This document shows, piece after piece, positions 35,474 to 47,627 of a DNA stretch of 64,000 nucleotides. The notes under the pieces were generated by a model. That model did not search any database. It was not told where the DNA came from and saw nothing but the letters and a program-made list of their open reading frames with translations. Positions within the stretch are counted from its first letter, which is position 1, and every line of letters starts with the position of its first letter. Made by a program: the position numbers and the translations under genes. The stretch comes from a bacterium (GTDB taxonomy: Bacteria > Bacillota > Clostridia > Lachnospirales > Lachnospiraceae), in NCBI GenBank assembly GCA_030535455.1, contig JAUNJY010000004.1:1-64000 (forward strand). The letters are read 5' to 3'.

Positions 35474-35734
35474 CGAAAACATCTCCATAATCTTCCATTG
35501 CATTTTTTTACAATTTTTCTTTATTGCCTTCGCCATTTTTTGTCTATAATTCAAATATATAAAGTCCAGATATCCCTTTAAATTCAATACTTATACAAGA
35601 TATTTCTTTCCATTTTTGTCGTCAAATCACCCTACCTACATGCCGGCTTCTTCCTCTTTTTCCCTTAATAAAATAAAGTCAAATTAAAAATCAGTTTATT
35701 TTCTTAAGGAAAAACAGAATAAAATAAAGTCAAA

Positions 35735-35776
35735 AAAGTGTAAAAAAGAGGAGTTTTGCTCTCTTTTTTACACTTT
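35735..35776 (-). terminator. Terminator of the kinase/surface-protein operon
   Basis: Perfect 16-bp stem AAAGTGTAAAAAAGAG / CTCTTTTTTACACTTT with a 10-base loop, ending 5 bases after the stop of the 1,780-residue protein gene. T-rich sequence follows on the minus strand. Confidence 0.85.
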
Positions 35777-35781
35777 CTTCT

Positions 35782-38700
35782 CTACTGTTGTTCTATTTTC
35801 TTTCTTTTCCTATACACAATAAATAAAACACTGCTTCCTAATGAGACAATAAGTACTCCTATAATTCCAACTGCCCAAAATGAACGATCATTTGCAATGC
35901 GAACAAGCAGATTCGTTGTAATAAATATCTTCTTGATCTCCTTAGTTGCTTCATTCCCTGCCTGATCCATTGCCACTACCTTAATGCTTTGAGCCGAGTT
36001 ACTGCTGCCCACTTGAACTATGTACTGATTTTGTTCTAATGAGTAAGGAACTTCTTGTTCATTAACATAAATCTTAGCATGATCCAGGACCAAGTTATCT
36101 TCTACATTGATTTTAACTTTTCTTGTTGTCTCATTGTAGGTTGAACCTGCTGCAACATTAATTGGTACAATCCTTGGTGGTGTACGATCTATTCCGAACC
36201 AAATCTCTGCCTTTTTATCTTCATCGGTATTCTCATTAATATTGCCAGCTTCGTCTTTTGAGTAAATTGCAAGGCTGTACTTTCCATCCTCTTGAATTAA
36301 GTTTGATGAAATATGATATATGTACTCATACCAAGTACCCTCTCCCCCGTCTTCTGTAACCGAATAGTCTTGATCCTTTACCAAATCCTTAACATTATCA
36401 TTGCAGACTAATCGTACAACCGTATTCTCTGTAGAAAGCTTGTTTACATTGATTTCGGTAACGACTAAATCAAACTCATCCTTAACATATTTTCCTGCAA
36501 CATTTAATAATGCATCACTAAAACTATAAGTGGAACCAAAACGATTAATTGAAAAATGTACCTCTTTTGTCGTTACATTTGACGCCTTATCTGTACAACT
36601 TACGACAAGCTTATATATTTTGTCATACTCCTTCTTTTTTGGGAAACAATCTAAGCGATAAGTAATGCCTTTTTCCACCTTTACTCTCTGAGGTGTAAAC
36701 TTCACCTCATTTTCCATGGCATCATATAATTTAACCTCTGTCTGAGTACTCGTAAAATTATTATCTGTACACATGATTTCAGGTATCAAATCACCATTAT
36801 AACACATTTGGTCTTTTACTCCTGTAATCTTGACCTCAGGTGATACTTTATCAATAACTAACTTTATTGTTTCCTGTTTTTCAAGCGTATTTCCTGCTTC
36901 ATCTGCATAGCTAATTGTAAACGTGTAACTTCCTTGATTAACAAATTCTAATTCTAAATTATACTGCTGCCTGGATGATGATGTAATTCCCAGCTCCGGA
37001 AATGCTATTTTCTTTCCTTCGTTAATTGCCGTTCCTTCTACCTTGACATTGGAAAATTCAAAATTATTTTCTGAAATATTTAATTGTACTTTTGTAGTTG
37101 AATTATAATAACTGATCCCTCCCTCTTTATAAGAAGGGGTTGGCAACAGCACATCTAGTACAGGTTCTGTTTGATCAATGGTAAATGTTTCTGTCTGACT
37201 AGGCCGCCCCTCATTTCCCACCTTATCCTTTACCAATGCTTTCAAGGAGTAAATACCATCTTTGTCAAATTCTATTGTTGCAATATTCACTGTCTGATCT
37301 GGATTTTCACTATCCTCTTGCTTACTCCATGCACTTAACTTTGGCACTTCACCAGCCGCATTATATAACTCCAGTTTTACCTGTTCAGCATCAAAATTTC
37401 GTTCTCTTACTTTAATTGTGGCAATACGTGGCTGATTATAATAAACACTGGAATTCTTCTTATCAAAGGTCAACTCTAGTATAGGTGCCGTCTTATCTAT
37501 GCTAAGATACATTTCCTTTTCATATTCCGTTCCTGTACGATCTGTGACTACGACATGTATTCTAATATTATTACTGTTATTAGAAATAACAAGCTTCCCC
37601 TTAAGCCGGGTCACCAAGTTTTGATCGCTCTCTTCTAAATTAAAATAGGACGTATCTCCTTCTAATTTACCAGTTGACGAAACCGTCAGCTTTCCTGACT
37701 GATTACTGGCACTATCCTGCTTACTATCTACTTCCCATTCAATAGAACGAATACCGGAATAATAATTTGCAACATCTAGGTTAACATCCACATTTTCTTT
37801 GTACAACTGATTACCCTTGTTATCTTTGCACTCTGTATCTGGAGTGCTAAACGCAATCTGTGAATTACTAATTCCTCCGGCACTGCTGTCAATAATAATT
37901 CCATATGGTCTAGAAAATTTACTTGCCGTATGCTCAACATAATCTACTGCCCTTGCAAAAATCTGTCCTTTAAAGTTCTCACGTATTGTAAAAAAGACTG
38001 TATTGTCTTGACCTACTTCCTTTACTGTTTTCTTCGAAGCGACTCCATCCTTATTAGAACTATAGTCAACCGTATAGTATTCAATGGCACGAATACCTGA
38101 AGAAGGAGTCCCATCTGATGCTTTAATCTGCACCTTGGTTGGCTCATTAAAGTAGTAACCATATTCCTGCTTTTCAATTAGCCTCTCATCCCGGTCTTTG
38201 ATACCATTTGCAGTAAAGCTAAACTGCTCAATTACAGGGGTTACACGGTCAATATAAATAGTTTTGCTTTTTTCTTGGATATTTCCTGCATTATCCACTG
38301 CCGACAACACTACATTATACTTTCCATCTTCACTCTCACCGATCTGTTGCGTATCAATTTTAAATGTAGTCTGACAAACTTTTTCATTAGTCGCCTGTAT
38401 CTGAATGTTATTTCCTGATAGATCATTTGTAATAGTTTGTCCATTCACTTTTACTTGAAGCTGCTTTAGTCCCGCTTCCTCATCACTACAATCAAAAGTA
38501 AGTATCTGATCCTCAGCATACCATTCCCTTTTCTCCGCATCAGTATATACAGGACTGTCACTGGTAATCTTTAACTTCGGACTTGTAGCCTCAATGCAAA
38601 TATAGTCATTATAAACGGAATTAACTGCACTTATAGAGACCGGTGTAGATTGATTTCCCACCTGATCACATGTCATAAGGCTTAAGTTTCCTTTAAAACC

Positions 38701-41124
38701 AGCTGGAATCTGAAATACCACTTTAAATTCATCTTTATAATTCTCTTTCTCGCAAGTCTTTGATGCTATCTGTTCTCCATCACAAAGCAACATAATAGAT
38801 TTTATGCCACTTGCCTTTGTCATCGCACCACTGCTTAATTGATAAAGATCGGTTGCTGTAACCTCTACTAAAAGCGGCTCATTAAGATATGTCCCATGCT
38901 TCAGACTTTGTACATTTTCAGTAGTGTCTCCTACCTTCTTTGAAAGCATCACTTCAGTTATCTTTGCAGGATTTGTATCGATATTTACCTCAACTTTTAA
39001 TGGCAAAGATATATTTCCTGCCTTATCCTCAGCATAAATATAGTAACTGTCTTCCATATCTATTGCATTTTTATCCTCATCCACTGGTGACTGTATTACA
39101 TAACTATCATTTTCATCTTTATTAACTGATAACTCTGTCATATCATTCTGATTGTCGCCAATACTATAATATACCTTCTCTATTCCAGAACATCCAGCCT
39201 GATCATAATCCCTTGCTGAGAAAGCAATTGTTACAATATCATTATGCCATTTTTGATTTGGCTTCTTGCTTACCAGCTTCATTACTGGCTTCTTAACATC
39301 AAACATGGCCACATAGCTATACAGCTGTTCTGATTTATTTCCCATCGTATCATATGCCCAGATATAATAGGTTGTCTTACCTGACTGTTTCGCATCAACT
39401 TGAAAACTATATTCCCCTGTCTCTTTATTTAGTGTAGCTTTCTTTATACTCTTTGTTTCCTGGTTTTGAGCCATATGGTTTTCTGCTTCACTTTTGTCTA
39501 CGGAATAGTAAACATGTTCCACATTGCTTCCCTTATCCTTTGCAACACCCCTTACTGTAATGTCTTGATTAAACCATTTTGACTCTGTATCAACTGTTAA
39601 AGTAGGACCTGCTACATCTACTTTCATTGGTTCAGAACGGTTTGTAGCATTATCTGTTGCCCAAATATAATACTCCTCATCTTTTAAAGATGTTTTTTTC
39701 ACTGAAAATATGTAATTGTTGTTATTGTTTTCAAGTTTGTAGTCATAATTCTTTTGAGTTACATCTGTTGATACCGATTTATCATACTCCTCTTTTGTAC
39801 CAAACTGAACCGTATCAATTTCAGAATCACCTTGATCCGTTATTTTTGTGGAAATTGTCAGGGTAGAGTCTGATGTTGAAGGAGCAGAGTGAGTTACTTT
39901 GTAGGATGATGCTGTTGGAGCTATTGTGTCAAAAATAAATTGGATAGGGTATTGGTAGACACCATTCATAGACCCTTGTGTATTTCTTAAGTAAATGCAA
40001 TCAAATAGACATGAATTCTCTATAAATATTGTACCATTTAGAGAAATCTTACTTGGCTTAATAAGCCAATCTTTTTTTGTTGTAAGCTTCAACTTTTTCT
40101 GCTTATTAAAAATAAGTATTACGTGCCCATCTGATTTAATAATTTTTTTAATATCAGCATTTAATCCATCTTCTAATAACACATCAAATACTGTTTCGAA
40201 ATCACAATCAATATCATCATATAAAGTACTTTTCAAAGAAATACTTACATTTTCATTAACATTATTTATAACATATTCTAAAGATCGACTATTTTCATCG
40301 GCCCAATATTTCTTTTCGCTATTACAATATAGTCCGTCTATTACTTGATTTTTACTTTTAGCTTCTATTTTTATTCTACATTCTTGATTCGCTTCCACTT
40401 CAATCTTTCTGGTTTGCTTATTATTCATCCATATATTAAAGTCATTATCCAATACTTCAATCAAAAAAAATTGCTTGTTAAATTCAACTTCAACCCAAAT
40501 ATCCTTCTTTACTTCATCAATTTTATAAATATATTCTTTCTTTTCTACATTACTAATAGTTAAATTTACATTATTAACTTCAATTTTATTTATCTCGCTA
40601 TACTCTTCGGGTAAAAATGAAAGTGAAATACTTTCATTTTCAAATATGTAAGTATTTTCTGTTTCTACTATTTGTTCTTGGTTAATTTTACACTTACCAC
40701 TTCCTCGCCCTGTATATTTACAACGAATTGTATACATTTTTTTAATTTCTAAATCAATTGTAGTATCCTTTTCAATAGTATATTTATAAACAAACTCATG
40801 TGGTTGACTTACTTCTAAGTTTTCATCATTTAATGCTATACTATAAATTCCATAATTTTCATCTGGTACTACTTTAATTTCTATTTCAGTTCCTACTTCA
40901 ATTACACAACTATTCCTTTCATCTAATTTAAACTCCTCATTATCGCTTAATATCTGAATATTGGATTTTTTTTGTTCTGTTACTATAAGTACAACGCTCT
41001 CTCCTTCATTCGCAGTAGGATTATAACTCTTATATACTAAAACACCCAGTTGTACTAATGCAGCAAATAAAACAAGAACGCTGATCGTTACCAATATCTT
41101 ATCTTTTTTTTCTACCCCTTTCAT
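35782..41124 (-). CDS. Giant membrane-anchored Ig-like repeat surface protein
   Basis: 1,780 residues. An N-terminal uncleaved-looking signal/anchor (ILVTISVLVLFAALVQLGVLVY, about 10-31) is followed by about 370 residues of beta-rich InlB-like or bacterial-repeat modules. About a dozen Ig-like domains follow from about 398 to 1,720, each opened by a boundary such as FDTIAPT, IDRVTP, IDKTAP, IDQTEP, IDKVSP or IDRTPP and often closed by an AxDxAGN-type turn. A C-terminal membrane helix (SFWAVGIIGVLIVSLGSSVLFIVY, about 1,740-1,765) and a basic tail RKRKKIEQQ end it. No LPxTG or SLH motif. It looks like a long extracellular stalk or adhesin tied to the membrane. Last gene of the PP2C-kinase operon, 28 bases after the LRR protein. 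Confidence 0.85.
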   Translation of the reverse strand: MKGVEKKDKILVTISVLVLFAALVQLGVLVYKSYNPTANEGESVVLIVTEQKKSNIQILSDNEEFKLDERNSCVIEVGTEIEIKVVPDENYGIYSIALNDENLEVSQPHEFVYKYTIEKDTTIDLEIKKMYTIRCKYTGRGSGKCKINQEQIVETENTYIFENESISLSFLPEEYSEINKIEVNNVNLTISNVEKKEYIYKIDEVKKDIWVEVEFNKQFFLIEVLDNDFNIWMNNKQTRKIEVEANQECRIKIEAKSKNQVIDGLYCNSEKKYWADENSRSLEYVINNVNENVSISLKSTLYDDIDCDFETVFDVLLEDGLNADIKKIIKSDGHVILIFNKQKKLKLTTKKDWLIKPSKISLNGTIFIENSCLFDCIYLRNTQGSMNGVYQYPIQFIFDTIAPTASSYKVTHSAPSTSDSTLTISTKITDQGDSEIDTVQFGTKEEYDKSVSTDVTQKNYDYKLENNNNNYIFSVKKTSLKDEEYYIWATDNATNRSEPMKVDVAGPTLTVDTESKWFNQDITVRGVAKDKGSNVEHVYYSVDKSEAENHMAQNQETKSIKKATLNKETGEYSFQVDAKQSGKTTYYIWAYDTMGNKSEQLYSYVAMFDVKKPVMKLVSKKPNQKWHNDIVTIAFSARDYDQAGCSGIEKVYYSIGDNQNDMTELSVNKDENDSYVIQSPVDEDKNAIDMEDSYYIYAEDKAGNISLPLKVEVNIDTNPAKITEVMLSKKVGDTTENVQSLKHGTYLNEPLLVEVTATDLYQLSSGAMTKASGIKSIMLLCDGEQIASKTCEKENYKDEFKVVFQIPAGFKGNLSLMTCDQVGNQSTPVSISAVNSVYNDYICIEATSPKLKITSDSPVYTDAEKREWYAEDQILTFDCSDEEAGLKQLQVKVNGQTITNDLSGNNIQIQATNEKVCQTTFKIDTQQIGESEDGKYNVVLSAVDNAGNIQEKSKTIYIDRVTPVIEQFSFTANGIKDRDERLIEKQEYGYYFNEPTKVQIKASDGTPSSGIRAIEYYTVDYSSNKDGVASKKTVKEVGQDNTVFFTIRENFKGQIFARAVDYVEHTASKFSRPYGIIIDSSAGGISNSQIAFSTPDTECKDNKGNQLYKENVDVNLDVANYYSGIRSIEWEVDSKQDSASNQSGKLTVSSTGKLEGDTSYFNLEESDQNLVTRLKGKLVISNNSNNIRIHVVVTDRTGTEYEKEMYLSIDKTAPILELTFDKKNSSVYYNQPRIATIKVRERNFDAEQVKLELYNAAGEVPKLSAWSKQEDSENPDQTVNIATIEFDKDGIYSLKALVKDKVGNEGRPSQTETFTIDQTEPVLDVLLPTPSYKEGGISYYNSTTKVQLNISENNFEFSNVKVEGTAINEGKKIAFPELGITSSSRQQYNLELEFVNQGSYTFTISYADEAGNTLEKQETIKLVIDKVSPEVKITGVKDQMCYNGDLIPEIMCTDNNFTSTQTEVKLYDAMENEVKFTPQRVKVEKGITYRLDCFPKKKEYDKIYKLVVSCTDKASNVTTKEVHFSINRFGSTYSFSDALLNVAGKYVKDEFDLVVTEINVNKLSTENTVVRLVCNDNVKDLVKDQDYSVTEDGGEGTWYEYIYHISSNLIQEDGKYSLAIYSKDEAGNINENTDEDKKAEIWFGIDRTPPRIVPINVAAGSTYNETTRKVKINVEDNLVLDHAKIYVNEQEVPYSLEQNQYIVQVGSSNSAQSIKVVAMDQAGNEATKEIKKIFITTNLLVRIANDRSFWAVGIIGVLIVSLGSSVLFIVYRKRKKIEQQ

Positions 41125-41152
41125 TTTTCCCCTCTTTTCTCCTATAATAACT

Positions 41153-43114
41153 CTATTTTTTTACGAAGACTATTGTTGAATAACCTGACTTAATTATTGA
41201 TTTATTTACTCTTTTAAATGTTCGTACTTTAAAATAATATCCCTTCTTCGCAGATATACCATATTTAATGTATTGTGTTTTATTCTTCCCCTCTAAAGTA
41301 GCAATACATTTATATCCTGATTTTTTTTTATTAGACATATAAATCATGTATCCTGATGCATTATTTATTTTTTTCCAGGTAAGTCTAATACCATTCTTTT
41401 TATTTTTCCTTATCTGTTTTATAGTAATAATCTTTGTTTTAGAAGGACATGTAGCTGTCTTTATCTCAGTCTCTCCTCCATAATTCTTCTTTCCATTAAT
41501 TTCTTTGTAGGAAACAACTTTAAATGAATAAGCTGTTGCACTCTGCAGCCTCTTTCCTGTTTTTCCATTTTCCTTACTAACGGTGTATGATGTTGACTTT
41601 GTATCTACTATTTTTCTATATTTTTTACATCTCGTATCATAGCGATAAATACTGTATCCAGTTGCACCATTAACCTTTGTCCAACCTAGTGTAAGAGTAC
41701 TAGTTGTTTGTTTTGATGCTTTAAGAGATTTTATTGCAGGAGGTGTGACTACCACTTCACAACTAGCCGACATTCCATCTGCTGAGACTATTATTCTTGC
41801 TGTTCCAACCTTTTTTGCAGTTATTCTTCCTTTGTTATCTACGCTTACCACTTTTGTATTTGACGACTTCCAGTTTAACTTATTATTTACTGCATTACTT
41901 GGTAATACCTTTACCGATAATTGTGTTGATTTATTTTTTTCAATATTTAAACTCACTTTTGTCTTATTTAATTTCAATGATGTAATAGCTGCTCTCACTG
42001 ATACCTTACATGTCTTTATTAAATTACTGCCATCCACACTTCTTGCTGTTATAATTGCCTGTCCCACAGATATCCCTGTAGTATTCCCTTGTTGGTCTAC
42101 CTTTACAATTTTTTCATTAGATGAACTCCAGTAAATTTGACTAACTGTACAGTTACTTGGCTTTGTGGTTATTGTTATTTTTTTTGTTTTATTTTTATTA
42201 ATAATAAGCTCAACATTATTACTATCTAAATTTATTCCTTCCATAGGAATAAACTCAGTAAAACTTTTATTAAACTGATTACAATATTGATATAATGTAG
42301 ATAATTTTTTATTTCCTACAGAATATTTGAAACCATAAAGATTTGCTGTCGTTATTGAGTTTACAATCCAACAATCACTATTTAAAAAAACTAAATTTTT
42401 AATATTTGAGCACTCATAGAATGCATTTTTCCCAATACTCTCGATAGAGTTTGGTATAAACGTAAACTGACCACCTGTATAAAAAATCTTTTCATCCTGT
42501 ATAATATTGAGTTTTTCGCAGTATGCAAATGCACCATATCCTATCTTCTTTATATTTTTTGATATATATACACTTTTTAGGTTATCACAACCAAAAAATA
42601 AGAAATCGCTAATTTCCTGCAAGTTTTGGGGCATTCTTACCGCGCCTATTCTAGCATTACACGAAAATGCGCTTTCATCTATGTTACTAACTGAATTTGG
42701 TATTTTGATTTCTAGCAAATCACATGTATCGAATGCAGATGCACCTATTTTCTCTAATCCTTCACAAATTGAAATATAATTTAGTTTTTTACAACAGTAA
42801 AAAGCACCCTTATTAATAATTCTTAAATACTTAGGTAAGTACACTCTACTTATGCTTAAATTATCTGCAAACGCTTCTTCCCCAACCTCCGTAACTCTCT
42901 TTCCTTCAACTGTTTCTGGTATATGCACTTCACTTGCTTTTCCTTTGTACTTTGTGATCGATACTGTTCCGTCATTAAGTATCTTATAAGTATAGTCGCC
43001 ATATAGCTTATCTGTATTTTCTGCTGACACAGATACTCCTTTACCACTTATTCCAGCCATACAAGCGAATAATAATATCACAACACAAAGAATTTTAATT
43101 TTACTCCCTCTCAT
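41153..43114 (-). CDS. Secreted BspA-like LRR / Big_2 Ig / fibronectin-III protein
   Basis: 653 residues. Signal peptide (MRGSKIKILCVVILLFACMAGISG, cleavage probably near SVSAEN). Then BspA/TpLRR-type leucine-rich repeats (about 70-260; repeats such as VTEVGEEAFADNLSISRVYLP, IGASAFDTCDLLEIKIP). Two Big_2-like domains follow (about 300-460; SSNEKIVKVDQQGNTTGISVG, SSNTKVVSVDNKGRITAKKVG), then two fibronectin-III-like domains (about 465-653; LTLGWTKVNGATGYSIYRYD, IRLTWKKINNASGYMIYMS). No anchor is seen, so secreted or non-covalently held. The start is the ATG with AGGAGG 7 bases upstream. It sits between a small membrane protein and the giant Ig protein. Confidence 0.88.
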   Translation of the reverse strand: MRGSKIKILCVVILLFACMAGISGKGVSVSAENTDKLYGDYTYKILNDGTVSITKYKGKASEVHIPETVEGKRVTEVGEEAFADNLSISRVYLPKYLRIINKGAFYCCKKLNYISICEGLEKIGASAFDTCDLLEIKIPNSVSNIDESAFSCNARIGAVRMPQNLQEISDFLFFGCDNLKSVYISKNIKKIGYGAFAYCEKLNIIQDEKIFYTGGQFTFIPNSIESIGKNAFYECSNIKNLVFLNSDCWIVNSITTANLYGFKYSVGNKKLSTLYQYCNQFNKSFTEFIPMEGINLDSNNVELIINKNKTKKITITTKPSNCTVSQIYWSSSNEKIVKVDQQGNTTGISVGQAIITARSVDGSNLIKTCKVSVRAAITSLKLNKTKVSLNIEKNKSTQLSVKVLPSNAVNNKLNWKSSNTKVVSVDNKGRITAKKVGTARIIVSADGMSASCEVVVTPPAIKSLKASKQTTSTLTLGWTKVNGATGYSIYRYDTRCKKYRKIVDTKSTSYTVSKENGKTGKRLQSATAYSFKVVSYKEINGKKNYGGETEIKTATCPSKTKIITIKQIRKNKKNGIRLTWKKINNASGYMIYMSNKKKSGYKCIATLEGKNKTQYIKYGISAKKGYYFKVRTFKRVNKSIIKSGYSTIVFVKK

Positions 43115-43134
43115 ACTTCTCCTCCTTCTTGCCT

Positions 43135-43605
43135 CTATCCCCTTGCTACCTTGCAATTGTCTATTCTGATTTCTAGCTTTGCTAGTACATCTGTTCCCGC
43201 AAGCTCAACATTATATTTTTTTTCGTCACCTAAACCTTGCGGAGCATTTAACTCCATATCATAGGTTGGAATAATAATCTTAGTTTCTTCAATAATCTCA
43301 CCTCTGGCGATGCGAGCATTCCTTTGCATCTCTTCAATTTGTTTCTCCTGCTGCTTCAATATTCTAAAATAAGATGCAAGTAAGTCATTGTAACCCTCTA
43401 TATTAGGGAGATCATCCTGAATTTGTGGGTTCAGCAATACACTGTTTTTTAGTAATACCTTAATATCCTCTTGCTCATGTGAATTCTTTAGCTCTTTGAT
43501 TACGGCACAGATATGTAATGAAAAAAACAAGATTATTGCGGCCACTATTAAGACAATTGCTAAGACAATCGATACAATGTAGATCCACTTGTAAATGGTG
43601 ATCAT
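43135..43605 (-). CDS. Small single-pass membrane protein of the kinase operon
   Basis: 156 residues. One long N-terminal hydrophobic segment (about 5-33, IYIVSIVLAIVLIVAAIILFFSLHI), then a mostly helical charged stretch (LLASYFRILKQQEKQIEEMQRNARIARGEI) and a short beta-rich C-terminus ending DNCKVARG. No family recognised. Strong ribosome site GGGAGG. It lies 15 bases after the kinase gene and 20 bases before the LRR gene, so it is probably a partner of one of them in the membrane. No function assigned. Confidence 0.7.
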   Translation of the reverse strand: MITIYKWIYIVSIVLAIVLIVAAIILFFSLHICAVIKELKNSHEQEDIKVLLKNSVLLNPQIQDDLPNIEGYNDLLASYFRILKQQEKQIEEMQRNARIARGEIIEETKIIIPTYDMELNAPQGLGDEKKYNVELAGTDVLAKLEIRIDNCKVARG

Positions 43606-43620
43606 CTCTTCTCCTCCCTT

Positions 43621-45303
43621 CTATTTTGTTGCATAAGTGCTTTCTAATATCATACGAACATCTTTCTCACGGCCCAAGATATAGTTTTTAATTTGCTCTG
43701 TCTTCTCTGTCATTGCCTCTGTCTGTTTGGCCTTTTCTAAGATAGAATTATACATTTGGTATACTTCATCTTTTGAAACACCATCAATCTTAAATTTCCT
43801 TGCATATACCTCAATGGAGGATGTAATGATACTATATAGCTCCAGTCTTACGATTTCACTTTCTTCATTACTTGTCTGCACTAAGGAAATCAGCTCATTT
43901 AAATCTTGAAAATAAGGTTCGTAACTTCCTTGGTCATTTGCTTCCTCTATATTAAGGGTAATATCACGATTGAATTTACCGATACTCTGGTAAACTGCTG
44001 CCATATTATATTGGTCAAATGATTTGTCTGAATAGGCAAGAACCTCCTCAAACCAACGAATCGAGCTCTTCATTCTGGTAATCTTATTATCATTTTCAGG
44101 AGTCTGACCATAATCATAGTAATACCAATACATCTTTCCAATTTGGAATGCCAGGACGTTATAATCCTTTTGCTTCTTCAATGAGTCCATATTATCGCTC
44201 AATAATGTAAGTAGCTGTTCTTCTTCCTCTTGTGAAAATATTGTATCTTCTTTAAATAAGTCAACCAGTCGTAAATAGGCTTCCGTGTTATTTGGACAGA
44301 TCTCAATTGCAGATAAAAGCAGCTTTTTTGCAGTCCCTTGGTCAGAAGTAGACTCTTCCTGTAGCAGAATATTATCGTAATTTCTATTCTCTTCATTCTT
44401 CATTAATAAATAAGAGCCCAGCCCTGCAAGCCCTAGTGTAATGCTTATTGCAAGAACTGCCACAAATGTCTTTACTTTTCTTTTCTGTCGCTTAATATGA
44501 TCCATATCAATTTTAGTGTAATTGCCTAGTGCATAGTAAAGTTCCATGCAATTCTGATATCTCTCTTTTGGATTTGCCTGGGTGCATTTTGATATAATCT
44601 GTTCCAATCCACCTGATAAATTTGGATTCCAATGTCGAATCGGATAGATTTCATATGGTGGTTCACTTGGGCTCTTTCCTGTTACCAGATGATATAATGT
44701 GACACCAAGACAATAAATATCTGTTCTAGGATCTGTCTGACCATGCCCTCCAAACTGTTCAGGCGCTGCATACCCCTTGGTCCCAAGGCTTACCGTATCA
44801 GAACTATGCTTTTCTTTGTATTCCCTTGCTATTCCAAAATCAATTAGTTTTAGGTTGCCATCAGGCTTAAGCATAATATTATCCGGCTTCATGTCACGAT
44901 AAATAATTGCAGGATTTCTTGTATGTAAATAATGCAGTACGCCACATAACTGTTTGGCCCATTCTATTACAAGTGTCTGTGGCTGTGGCCCGAAGTGATT
45001 AATAATCTTACTTAGTGGCTCTCCCTCCACATAATCCATAACAACATATAATAGGTCCTCTTTTTCAATGACCTCAATAATTCTTGGCAATGCCGGATGA
45101 TCCAGCTTCTTTAATAGTTTTACTTCCTCCGCTAAGCTGCTTAATAAGAAATCTTTGTCCTCCACACGATCATTGATTTCTTTAATCGCCCACTGCTTAT
45201 TCAGCCTGATGTCCATTACCAAATAAACTTTGGACATGCCTCCCTGCCCAATTAACTTTAAAACCTCATATTTATTTTCAATAATTGATCCGATTGTTGC
45301 CAT
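43621..45303 (-). CDS. Membrane Ser/Thr protein kinase with extracytoplasmic helical-repeat domain
   Basis: 560 residues. Hanks-type kinase domain (about 10-270): glycine loop LIGQGGMSKVYLV, Lys in WAIKEI, catalytic loop IIYRDMKPDN, metal-binding LIDFGIAREY, activation segment TVSLGTKGYAAPEQFGG, and DIYCLGVTLYHLVTGKSP. A membrane helix (TFVAVLAISITLGLAGLGSYLLM) lies near 280-302. The remaining ~255 residues are TPR-like helical (NNTEAYLRLVDLFK, NVLAFQIGKMYWYYYDYG) instead of the PASTA repeats of PrkC, so the signal differs from muropeptide sensing. It begins 15 bases after the PP2C gene, its likely antagonist. Start ATG with GGGGGAG upstream. Confidence 0.92.
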   Translation of the reverse strand: MATIGSIIENKYEVLKLIGQGGMSKVYLVMDIRLNKQWAIKEINDRVEDKDFLLSSLAEEVKLLKKLDHPALPRIIEVIEKEDLLYVVMDYVEGEPLSKIINHFGPQPQTLVIEWAKQLCGVLHYLHTRNPAIIYRDMKPDNIMLKPDGNLKLIDFGIAREYKEKHSSDTVSLGTKGYAAPEQFGGHGQTDPRTDIYCLGVTLYHLVTGKSPSEPPYEIYPIRHWNPNLSGGLEQIISKCTQANPKERYQNCMELYYALGNYTKIDMDHIKRQKRKVKTFVAVLAISITLGLAGLGSYLLMKNEENRNYDNILLQEESTSDQGTAKKLLLSAIEICPNNTEAYLRLVDLFKEDTIFSQEEEEQLLTLLSDNMDSLKKQKDYNVLAFQIGKMYWYYYDYGQTPENDNKITRMKSSIRWFEEVLAYSDKSFDQYNMAAVYQSIGKFNRDITLNIEEANDQGSYEPYFQDLNELISLVQTSNEESEIVRLELYSIITSSIEVYARKFKIDGVSKDEVYQMYNSILEKAKQTEAMTEKTEQIKNYILGREKDVRMILESTYATK

Positions 45304-45318
45304 AACGCTCCCCCAGCT

Positions 45319-46092
45319 TTATAACGTCCGTATTACAATTACGCTTATATTATCTTGTTCTTTTCTTTCTTTACATAATTCTACTAAGTCCTTTATATTC
45401 TTATCGATGCTATCCTGCGTCGACAGTTCTAATGGACGCAGATATGTATACATTTCCTCTTCTGATATTTTATGACGGAATCCATCAGAGCAAAGTACAT
45501 ATGTACAATCCCTCTTAACAGGATATAGTTTCATATCTAAATTGATCTGCTTGGTATCACCAACACATTGTAAAATGATGTTCTGTCTTGGGTCATCTTT
45601 TGCTTGTTCTCTTGTTATTAATCCCTTTTTTACCTGTAATTCTACAAATGTCTGGTCCTCTGTCATCTGTCTGATATACTGCTTCAGTTCATACAGTCTG
45701 CAGTCTCCTACATGAAGTACAAACATACCATATATATCTGAAATAAATACAGCTGTTACTGTTGTCCCAAGCTTCTTTCCTTGTTGCCTTCCATACTCGA
45801 TTAATAATTCATTTGTTTGTAATACAAGCTCTTCCCACTCTTCTTTTACCTTATTGAATGATAGTCCCGCTTCACAAAGTTGAGGAAGCCTTTGATCAAA
45901 CCACTGCTTAAATTCATGAATTAGTGTTCCGCTTGCTATTTCTCCTTGCTCTAATCCACCCATTCCATCACAGACAACGGCCATAGTAATGGTATACCCT
46001 TCGTTCTCTACCATCTGAAGACAAATACTGTCTTGGTTCATTTTCTTACGTATTCCGACATCTGTATTATAGCCTGCAACTACTTCCAACAT
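45319..46092 (-). CDS. PP2C-family Ser/Thr protein phosphatase (PrpC/Stp-like)
   Basis: 257 residues, the bacterial single-domain size. Metal-binding motifs: VGIRKKMNQDSI (motif 1), VVCDGMGGLEQGEIAS (motif 2), LGTTVTAVFIS and LHVGDCRLYEL, VLCSDGFRHKISEEE, and C-terminal QDNISVIVI. Cytoplasmic; dephosphorylates targets of the adjacent kinase. The start is the ATG with GAGGGGG 4 bases upstream; an earlier start 7 codons up has no site. First gene of the five-gene operon. Confidence 0.94.
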   Translation of the reverse strand: MLEVVAGYNTDVGIRKKMNQDSICLQMVENEGYTITMAVVCDGMGGLEQGEIASGTLIHEFKQWFDQRLPQLCEAGLSFNKVKEEWEELVLQTNELLIEYGRQQGKKLGTTVTAVFISDIYGMFVLHVGDCRLYELKQYIRQMTEDQTFVELQVKKGLITREQAKDDPRQNIILQCVGDTKQINLDMKLYPVKRDCTYVLCSDGFRHKISEEEMYTYLRPLELSTQDSIDKNIKDLVELCKERKEQDNISVIVIRTL

Positions 46093-46195
46093 TCTTCCCC
46101 CTCTCACTATCATATTTTCACGATTACAGTTAATAAAACCTTAACATATCTAACATACACAAACTACAATTCTTACAAATTTCGAATTCTATTGT

Positions 46196-46243
46196 AATAT
46201 TTAAGAGGCTGCCCCGCTTAAAGCGATTCAGCCTCTTAAATAT
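46196..46243 (-). terminator. Terminator of the DUF2812 gene
   Basis: Stem AATATTTAAGAGGCTG / CAGCCTCTTAAATATA, 17-base spacer containing a small inner hairpin, starting 16 bases after the DUF2812 stop. T-run is weak. Confidence 0.6.
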
Positions 46244-46259
46244 AGTCAGCTCTATTATT

Positions 46260-47627
46260 TTAGTATTGAAAATCTCCGACTTTCTCTAACTGTTTTTCCG
46301 TTAATTTTGAATTGATATTTACCTCAACAATTACATTGTCATACAAAAAGATATATTCGTAAAATTTGTCATCAATTTTCTTAACATATACCTTTTTCGC
46401 TTTTAGATTGTTATTTTCAATAATATCATAGGTATAATCTTCTGCACCATTATAACACTCTTCTTGCAATACACGATTATACAGATATTCACTTTTTGTC
46501 TTATATACAATGTAGTAAAGACATGGTTCGCTACTTTTCGTATCATCAACTGTAATTAGAGCAGGTTCCTCACAATAATAATCCTTTTTGATAATAAATT
46601 CTCCATCTACTTGATGATATTTAGAATACTTAGTTTCCGAATTGATCTTAATTCCGAAGTCTTCTAGATCAAATGGAATTTCATCTTCAAATCTAGTAAT
46701 TGTTCCAGTCTTCCCATTTACCTCATACGCACATTCACTTGTATTGTGTACCTCTGTAAATATTGTAGAGCAGTTATAGGCCATTAGGTAGATTACTGCT
46801 GCAATTGCTCCAATTCCTATGCTTCCTAAAATATGTATCTGCAATCTCTTCTTTTGCGTTCTAACTAGCTGATTAAATAACAGTAATGCGGTCAGTACAA
46901 ATAAAATCAGGCATCTTGTAAATGCCCCTTCTGAGTGGAATGTTCTGCTTTCTACAAAAAATCCAATAATACTAATTCCCAGCATTCCTAATATGGTAAT
47001 TAGGGCAACATATCCCATCCTTCCCCTTGGATGTTCCGGGATCTCCTTCTTTAATTTTGCTGCTATTCTCGCTTTGCTATGCCATTTTCTATTTACAAAA
47101 ATATAGGCTAGTAAATATAGGGCAAATGCAATCCATGCAATAACATAAATAAACTGGCTAAAACTTGTCAGAATATGTACAATTCCCATAAACTCAGTAA
47201 ATACATTGCAGCAAGCCATAAAGATCAAACATACTAAAAGATAAAAATACTCTTTATAATAGCTTTTAAATATGCTTTCTACTACTGCCTCTGCCTTTAC
47301 CTTTGGCCTCTTACTGTTAATCCGTTCTGTAGACAACACCTGAAACTTGGAATTGGCATAGACAACTGTCCAGCCTTCTTTTTTACATTTTTCTATAAAT
47401 TCTAAATTCTTTTCATTTTCAGAAGTATTGTTCCACTTTTCCTTTTCAAATACCTCTGCATAGTATTTTATCTCTTTTGGGGTCCCTTTCTTAAAATAAA
47501 AAAGACTGCCTATGTACTTATATAGAAACCAGCCTTTAAGGGCCATCTCATTCAAATATTGTTCGACTCGGTCTAAGTGCTGTAAATTTACACTGTAATA
47601 AGCTATTTTTTTATTCTTCTCCCTCAT
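46260..47627 (-). CDS. DUF2812 domain-containing membrane protein
   Basis: 455 residues. The N-terminal DUF2812 segment (about 8-110; YYSVNLQHLDRVEQYLNEMALKGWFLYKYIGSLFYFKKG, then EGWTVVYANSKFQVLS) is cytoplasmic. Five or six hydrophobic helices follow between about 125 and 290. The C-terminal ~160 residues are an extracytoplasmic beta-rich domain. Many DUF2812 genes follow a PadR regulator gene; none is present here and the gene stands alone between two terminators. The role of the family is unknown. Ribosome site AGAGGA 6 bases before the ATG. Confidence 0.85.
   Translation of the reverse strand: MREKNKKIAYYSVNLQHLDRVEQYLNEMALKGWFLYKYIGSLFYFKKGTPKEIKYYAEVFEKEKWNNTSENEKNLEFIEKCKKEGWTVVYANSKFQVLSTERINSKRPKVKAEAVVESIFKSYYKEYFYLLVCLIFMACCNVFTEFMGIVHILTSFSQFIYVIAWIAFALYLLAYIFVNRKWHSKARIAAKLKKEIPEHPRGRMGYVALITILGMLGISIIGFFVESRTFHSEGAFTRCLILFVLTALLLFNQLVRTQKKRLQIHILGSIGIGAIAAVIYLMAYNCSTIFTEVHNTSECAYEVNGKTGTITRFEDEIPFDLEDFGIKINSETKYSKYHQVDGEFIIKKDYYCEEPALITVDDTKSSEPCLYYIVYKTKSEYLYNRVLQEECYNGAEDYTYDIIENNNLKAKKVYVKKIDDKFYEYIFLYDNVIVEVNINSKLTEKQLEKVGDFQY

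Follow-up and report, generated by a model that had tools for sequence, protein, structure and literature searches.

The window, a 64,000-nucleotide stretch of contig JAUNJY010000004.1 from a Lachnospiraceae genome, carries a run of five minus-strand genes for a PP2C phosphatase, a membrane Ser/Thr kinase, a 156-residue membrane protein, a secreted leucine-rich repeat (LRR) protein and a long immunoglobulin-like (Ig) fibre. We propose that this operon, tseF-tseD-tseH-LRR-tseI, is a phospho-switch and fibre module derived from a type VII secretion system (T7SS) of the subtype T7SSe and working without the T7SS engine, a reading to which we give a probability of about 0.65 and which is built, at the level of sequence, on homology, synteny, motif enrichment and engine genes that were not found. 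The subtypes T7SSe, of Bacillota, and T7SSd, of Actinomycetota, were named by Garrett, Higginson & Palmer (2024, PMC11217815), whose main text gives as T7SSe parts the kinase TseD, the PPM phosphatase TseF, the single-transmembrane (single-TM) protein TseH, the Ig protein TseI and the DUF6382-FHA protein TseJ, together with the ATPase TseC, the WXG100 proteins TseA and TseA2 and the ubiquitin-like TseB. The parts are known and the arrangement appears to be new: a T7SSe module without its engine, partly a partner of Tad pili, with a docking code first seen here.

By homology, four genes of the operon are T7SSe parts, the phosphatase being TseF, the kinase TseD, the 156-residue protein TseH and the fibre TseI. 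The earlier note on this DNA, made from the sequence alone, knew of no described system made of this set, a claim that fails against the main text of PMC11217815, where kinase, phosphatase, TM protein and fibre are T7SSe/T7SSd parts. Compared with the T7SSe locus of Neobacillus (L002), in whose genome ATPase, WXG100 and DUF6382 matches lie inside 10 kb (G201 contig 8), the kinase is 56% identical over 526 residues, the phosphatase 39% over 256 residues and the fibre 29% over 1,829 columns, and in a kinase tree the window's TseD sits among T7SSe-linked kinases. The 156-residue protein is probably H rather than K, because its cluster includes the kinase neighbour of a Bifidobacterium (L057), a T7SSd genus, and the main text describes H for T7SSd and not K (PMC11217815). 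The operon thus holds a TseD kinase with an outer domain, TseF, TseH and a TseI with a C-terminal TM segment; a TseJ gene (DUF6382-FHA) is absent from it, and a 346-residue homologue lies on contig 109 of the same genome.

A kinase scan of a species-level genome collection gave 311 relatives. The 80 best of these were taken as loci (L numbers), and their open reading frames (ORFs; 1,039 in all) were called and clustered. The phosphatase gene adjoins the kinase gene in 74 of the 80 loci, and a homologue of the 156-residue protein does so in 71 of the 77 with room. Downstream sequence of 5 kb or more is available for 53 kinase relatives; 35 of these have a fibre homologue within five genes downstream and 6 more have one upstream only, so the link between switch and fibre that the earlier note had drawn proves lasting. 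Counts by cluster overlook divergent fibres, and of the remaining 12, four (L040, L054, L059 and L076) nevertheless match the window's fibre by BLAST. The LRR gene, which had been counted as part of the same set, does not belong there: it comes next after the membrane-protein gene in 1 (L022) of the 62 loci with at least 1 kb there, to which are added the sister genome (L001, same genus), whose contig ends inside its LRR gene, and both modules of a closed genome, G249. The LRR-Big2-Fn3 gene is an accessory outside the common set.

Two further arrangements were seen in these neighbourhoods. In many loci a gene for a four-TM protein of about 160 residues (cluster 8, 19 members; L049:12363-12851) separates tseH from the fibre gene. 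Such loci often have a trypsin-FHA gene upstream and a TPR-kinase gene following the fibre gene; the one cluster member scanned had no Pfam match. At L006:2357-11800, and also in L004 and L024, kinase and TseH are followed by a DnaJ-like gene (labelled by eye), a second kinase, a 724-residue protein, an FHA-like protein and a second PP2C.

The PP2C gene is preceded, one or two genes away, by a member of a DUF6382-FHA cluster (22 loci) or of a trypsin-FHA cluster (24) in 46 of the 73 loci with room. ORFs of T7SS clusters (EssC-type ATPase, YukD, WXG100) occur in 24 of the 80 loci and Tad-type ORFs in 9, never both together; the Tad-type label covers four clusters, of which one holds the prepilin peptidase by Pfam (L058; also G249) and the other three, one of them Pfam-blank and together the sole source of the label of L017, were assigned by position and similarity only. 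Two modules are present in G249, whose genome is closed as a single contig and belongs to the same genus as the window. Module A reads TadZ-TadA-...-TadC-like-...-prepilin peptidase-...-DUF6382-FHA-PP2C-kinase-TseH-LRR-fibre, with Pfam matches to TadZ-like, T2SSE, T2SSF, peptidase A24 and DUF6382 plus FHA, and module B reads FHA-kinase-TseH-LRR-fibre beside genes for LysR and a DNA polymerase. The G249 kinases are 42-43% identical to that of the window, against 56% for Neobacillus. We give an even chance to a broader reading, in which kinase, phosphatase, TseH and fibre form a portable 'input' module rather than a part of secretion as such. The TPR kinase would read the variable tip of a wall-spanning fibre and write it as phosphothreonines onto the repeat array of TseH, and an exchange of the FHA reader would swap the output between T7SS ATPase, Tad pilus, membrane protease and readers in trans, with T7SSe as one of several machines.

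Engine genes were searched in 50 genomes, namely the window's own (93.6% complete, 7.7% contamination, 126 contigs, the operon's contig having 137,978 bases) and 49 of the 80. Neither the window's genome nor the closed G249 has a WXG100 (TseA/TseA2) match; a profile of six TseC proteins gave only FtsK-type or FHA partial matches of at most 79 bits in the former, and no TseC-type ATPase matched in the latter. A complete T7SSe in the window's genome was rejected on these grounds, ATPase and WXG100 not being found in an assembly 93.6% complete. ATPase scores across the 50 kinase-bearing genomes are bimodal, with 32 at 636 bits or more and 17 at 99 bits or less, leaving one Bifidobacterium genome (L057) with an ambiguous match of 163.5 bits. 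All 32 ATPase genomes have a WXG100 match at E <=0.001 (one, G202, under the cut-off), and 16 of the 17 low-scoring genomes have none. The exception is the sister, which has one WXG100-like gene beside an 881-residue FtsK-like ATPase of another kind, possibly another T7SS-like system. Its genome was entered twice (G200 and G250, with an identical 44,668-base contig), and at 6745-13999 of L115 (G200 contig 140) it shows in a row a vWA-like gene, the 89-residue WXG100-like gene, the 881-residue FtsK-like ATPase, a second vWA-like, a PP2C-like and a kinase-like gene; the vWA and PP2C labels were given by eye, and the genes together resemble a small T7SS-like system of a different kind.

A T7SS lying in the unassembled part of the window's genome, which would make the module no orphan, is very improbable in our estimate. 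Incompleteness, fragmentation into 126 contigs and the sister's WXG100-like and FtsK-like pair speak for it, and completeness of 93.6% with 7.7% contamination indeed makes the absence in this one genome weak when taken alone; no ATPase or WXG100 match, however, lies on the operon's 137,978-base contig, and no full-length T7SSe-type ATPase is present in the sister or in closed G249. The engine-less reading is preferred because neither ATPase nor WXG100 was found in the window's genome or in G249, which carries two modules. In the kinase tree the window falls in a clade of 17 rows (support 93), of which 9 come from ATPase genomes, 5 from genomes that lack the ATPase and 3 carry no label, and at least six gains or losses of the engine label are forced, on a quick tree without bootstrap that leaves out the G249 kinases and counts the ambiguous Bifidobacterium L057 as lacking the ATPase.

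The 156-residue protein had been put forward as a candidate linker; a scaffold for phospho-dependent docking (TseH) seems a better description of it than a linker of no particular kind. In the 74 aligned proteins a short outer end, one TM and a positively charged stretch come first, and then a tail of low complexity in which ETTLL, ETTVL, ATEVL and similar repeats occur. The main text of PMC11217815 describes the TseH/TsdH tail as short and unstructured, and 'ETT' was not found in it; the T-x-[VIL]-L repeats of the 74 tails are new here. T-x-[VLIM]-[LIV] occurs 258 times in the tails against a mean of 46.5 in shuffles (maximum 66 of 500), and the strict form [ED]T-x-[VLI]-L 116 times against 2.7 expected, with the weakness that tail shuffles leave shared ancestry in. 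With serine in place of threonine the count is 25 against 36.9 expected, and the reversed motif gives 46 against 46 (100 shuffles for these controls). The +3 position, where leucine, isoleucine and valine were allowed, is leucine in 249 of the 258. Clustered motifs (at least two within 60 residues) are found in 44/73 TseH proteins, 23/32 proteins of the DUF6382-FHA cluster and 23/28 of the trypsin-FHA cluster, against 0/83 for PP2C, 0/80 for the kinase, 0/18 for the second TPR kinase, 0/48 for the fibre and 2/677 for other ORFs, one of which (L031_4) reads as an FHA protein overlooked by clustering. As a held-out check, the gene after the kinase could be used in 11 of 29 extra loci, and nine of the 11 carry at least one motif, two of these nine being near-copies of training rows; two loci have none.

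The DUF6382-FHA and trypsin-TM-FHA neighbours, which we call readers, carry the motif just before their own FHA domain. We aligned 55 of the 60 clustered readers (omitting three of 129-276 residues and two on the opposite strand) and two from the window's genome. An FHA domain was detected in 57 of the 57 scanned, DUF6382 in 25 and Trypsin_2 in 25. A glycine, a Ser-Arg-x-His stretch and an asparagine are invariant in these FHA domains, and we take them to be the phosphothreonine-site residues. FHA domains have a preference at the '+3' position. Within a locus, TseH and reader motifs agree (43 pairs) for valine at +2 (r 0.53, permutation 0.0005) and glutamate at -1 (r 0.49, 0.0015), correlations that include shared ancestry. 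In relatives, the conserved threonine motif directly before FHA gives the readers a layout like that of GarA/OdhI; in GarA, ETTS lies before the FHA domain, according to the portion of PMC5448819 consulted. A role for the T-x-[VIL]-L repeats other than that of FHA ligands, for example as a threonine-favouring short linear motif that binds membranes or partners, seems quite improbable: phosphorylation at the repeats is itself a deduction, and the repeats spread through lineage-specific expansion, but the enrichment is specific to threonine, the serine form not being enriched, leucine prevails at +3, and the motif is shared almost solely with FHA proteins, directly before the FHA domain.

No FHA reader was found among the ORFs neighbouring the operon itself. 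The window's genome has three FHA proteins, on contig 109 (DUF6382-FHA), contig 122 (DUF6382-FHA at a Tad locus) and contig 62; the sister has counterparts of the contig-109 and contig-122 proteins only. With these three, readers would be available in trans, though the docking array is reduced. Contig 62 (L116, 2953-7391) has a second kinase cluster. Its kinase, of 758 residues, has relatives among the TPR kinases at other loci, and the cluster's 654-residue protein contains a TM-like stretch and three FHA domains, the last of them preceded by QTTLL.

Phosphorylation, docking, sensing and output could be joined, we infer, as follows. TseI would be anchored through its conserved C-terminal part, cross the wall and display a variable tip, and the TPR-like outer domain of TseD may read the state of TseI or of the LRR protein. 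TseD and TseF would write and erase phosphothreonines in the T-x-x-L motifs of the cytoplasmic tail of TseH, onto which FHA proteins would dock. Because a copy of this motif directly precedes the FHA domain in the readers too, their own phosphorylation could also close that domain on itself, as in GarA/OdhI. Readers would be swappable, coupling the module in relatives to a T7SS, a Tad pilus or a trypsin-like protease that spans the membrane; those of the window's genome would act in trans, most likely the contig-109 DUF6382-FHA protein and perhaps that of the Tad locus.

Two threonines of the window's TseH, T108 (ETKII) and T138 (GTDVL), align with conserved threonines of the family. Several observations nevertheless weigh against our proposal. 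These two motifs are the only ones in the protein and both are off-consensus (shuffle P of at least two, 0.018); the first reads E-P-K-I-I in the sister, its threonine lost; and the glycine after the TM, present in 93% of the family, is missing from the window's TseH. In the divergent TseH of G249 module B, six TTKLDL-like repeats keep threonine and +3 leucine, lack a hydrophobic +2 and so miss the enriched pattern. The contig-109 reader has E-T-I-V-H rather than T-x-x-L, no reader adjoins the operon, and the agreement between TseH and readers is weak for threonine at +1 (r 0.11) and leucine at +2 (r 0.26, permutation 0.05). The reduced motif array fits decay as well as use.

The operon might accordingly be a decaying remnant left after loss of the T7SS, its kinase, scaffold and fibre genes lasting only for a time or serving as a plain adhesin operon in which no docking switch works. 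This we consider unlikely. The few degenerate motifs in window and sister, the lost TseH glycine and the want of an adjoining FHA gene fit it, as does the neighbourhood in the window's genome that matches G249 module B (LysR and polymerase each 82% identical), where the 346-residue contig-109 reader stands alone in place of the full FHA-kinase-TseH-LRR-fibre module. The five ORFs, on the other hand, are intact, as are the catalytic motifs, the terminator is strong, the sister's kinase and PP2C are 92% and 87% identical to the window's, and a second species retains the module in a closed genome with no detectable T7SS ATPase. At that matching neighbourhood (L111:7891-8147) only 257 bases separate the LysR gene from the FHA gene where G249 carries kinase, TseH, LRR and fibre, a gap that is a clean loss or gain of the whole module.

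The part of the fibre beyond about residue 1,100 has matches in 33-35 of the 35 other long fibres of its cluster, its first 400 residues in one. A hydrophobic segment is present at the N-terminal end of 33 and at the C-terminal end of 32 of the 35 complete fibres, and LPxTG occurs near the end of none; this points to a fibre anchored in the membrane whose tip can be exchanged. For the kinase, a structure search with the whole protein gave kinase domains in the 50 matches listed, and the outer domain was therefore predicted alone; AlphaFold2 gives a high-confidence, all-helical TPR-like superhelix with modest structural matches. No PASTA domain matched, so the earlier description of a non-PASTA kinase with a TPR-like outer domain holds good. 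The idea of contact sensing survives as a conjecture. As an account of its own, in which fibre and LRR protein bind a ligand and the kinase reports occupancy to control adhesion with neither secretion nor pili, it strikes us as rather doubtful: the variable tip beside a conserved membrane-proximal part and the TPR-like outer domain agree with it, but the LRR gene is beside the membrane-protein gene in just the one locus and the cut L001, and relatives adjoin T7SS or Tad-type genes in the numbers given above.

The operon itself is laid out as had been claimed, with gaps of 15, 15, 20 and 28 bases, a ribosome site for each gene and one closing terminator (Table 1). The PP2C ORF possibly starts at 46113, and the operon plausibly starts at this gene, because a hairpin, spotted by eye, lies after the upstream gene (46260-47627), at about 46198-46240. 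Against the NCBIfam Stp1/IreP model the PP2C scores 8.3e-51, under the cut-off (172.7 vs 230). The window's TseH has a short outer end and a cytoplasmic tail of about 128 residues, and no Pfam family reaches its cut-off in this protein.

Table 1. Features of the tseF-tseD-tseH-LRR-tseI operon, in window coordinates.
Feature	Position	Strand	Evidence
PP2C/PPM phosphatase, TseF homologue, 257 aa	45319..46092	-	Pfam PP2C_2 above cut-off; catalytic motifs intact
Membrane Ser/Thr kinase, TseD homologue, 560 aa	43621..45303	-	Pkinase 2.3e-51; active-site motifs intact
Kinase single transmembrane helix, residues 277-295	44419..44475	-	hydropathy scan
Kinase outer domain, TPR-like, all-helical, residues 298-560	43624..44412	-	AlphaFold2 pLDDT 90.8; modest TPR matches
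156-aa single-TM protein, TseH family	43135..43605	-	in one BLAST cluster of 74 members
Degenerate docking motif E-T108-K-I-I in TseH	43273..43287	-	aligned column T in 94% of 71 rows
Docking motif G-T138-D-V-L in TseH	43183..43197	-	column T in 96% of 68 rows; +3 column L in 93% of 67
Secreted LRR_5 + Big_2 + fn3 protein, 653 aa, accessory	41153..43114	-	Pfam; same place in L022, L001 (cut) and both G249 modules
1,780-aa Ig fibre, TseI homologue	35782..41124	-	Big_13/Big_3_3; N-terminal hydrophobic segment, C-terminal TM
Intrinsic terminator hairpin at operon end	35734..35777	-	

If correct, the proposal uncouples the engine of a secretion subtype described only recently from the half that does the signalling and forms the fibre, places this half at Tad-pilus loci as well and supplies a testable phospho-code, with T-x-x-L arrays on TseH and the same motif before the FHA domain of each reader. 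It would explain the role of the T7SSd/T7SSe kinases, phosphatases and FHA proteins, which the main text of PMC11217815 leaves as a possibility. The survey described there began from EssC, and engine-less modules therefore fell outside its search (PMC11217815). Like T7SSe and T7SSd as described in that text, the window clusters homologues of TseF, TseD, TseH and TseI alike, with the same kinase and fibre topology (PMC11217815); it differs in that TseC and TseA were not found in its genome, in having no TseJ at the locus and in its extra LRR gene.

The kinase was also considered as a homologue of EssB (YukC) of T7SSb. It shares with EssB a kinase fold, a TM and an outer helical domain, and wall-spanning EsaA offers an analogy for the fibre; this candidate was rejected, as no YukC profile matches in the window's genome and the kinase has active-kinase motifs where EssB is a pseudo-kinase, so that the likeness is one of topology, with no sequence homology shown. 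The YukC family exceeds its cut-off in 2 of the 50 genomes carrying this kinase, and EssB is not among the matches listed for the outer-domain model. The PASTA kinases PrkC, StkP and PknB with the Stp phosphatase provide the closest solved kinase domains and a like kinase-phosphatase pair, whereas the window's kinase has a TPR-like outer domain and other neighbours; a PrkC-like system was rejected on these differing neighbours, the missing PASTA match and a model score of 208.9 against a cut-off of 450. In the type VI secretion system (T6SS), a kinase-phosphatase-FHA switch uses threonine phosphorylation and FHA docking to control a secretion machine. An Agrobacterium example is mentioned in the main text of PMC11217815, and the likeness lies in that chemistry, while the proteins are different and no secretion engine was found with the window's operon. 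With the GarA/OdhI switch of Actinobacteria, as set out in the consulted portion of PMC5448819, the readers have in common a threonine motif in a flexible stretch before the FHA domain, which there serves kinase-controlled self-binding. The motif here, however, is mostly [E/G]-T-T-[VIL]-L, the readers carry DUF6382 or a trypsin domain and a TM, and a separate membrane scaffold bears an array of the same motif.

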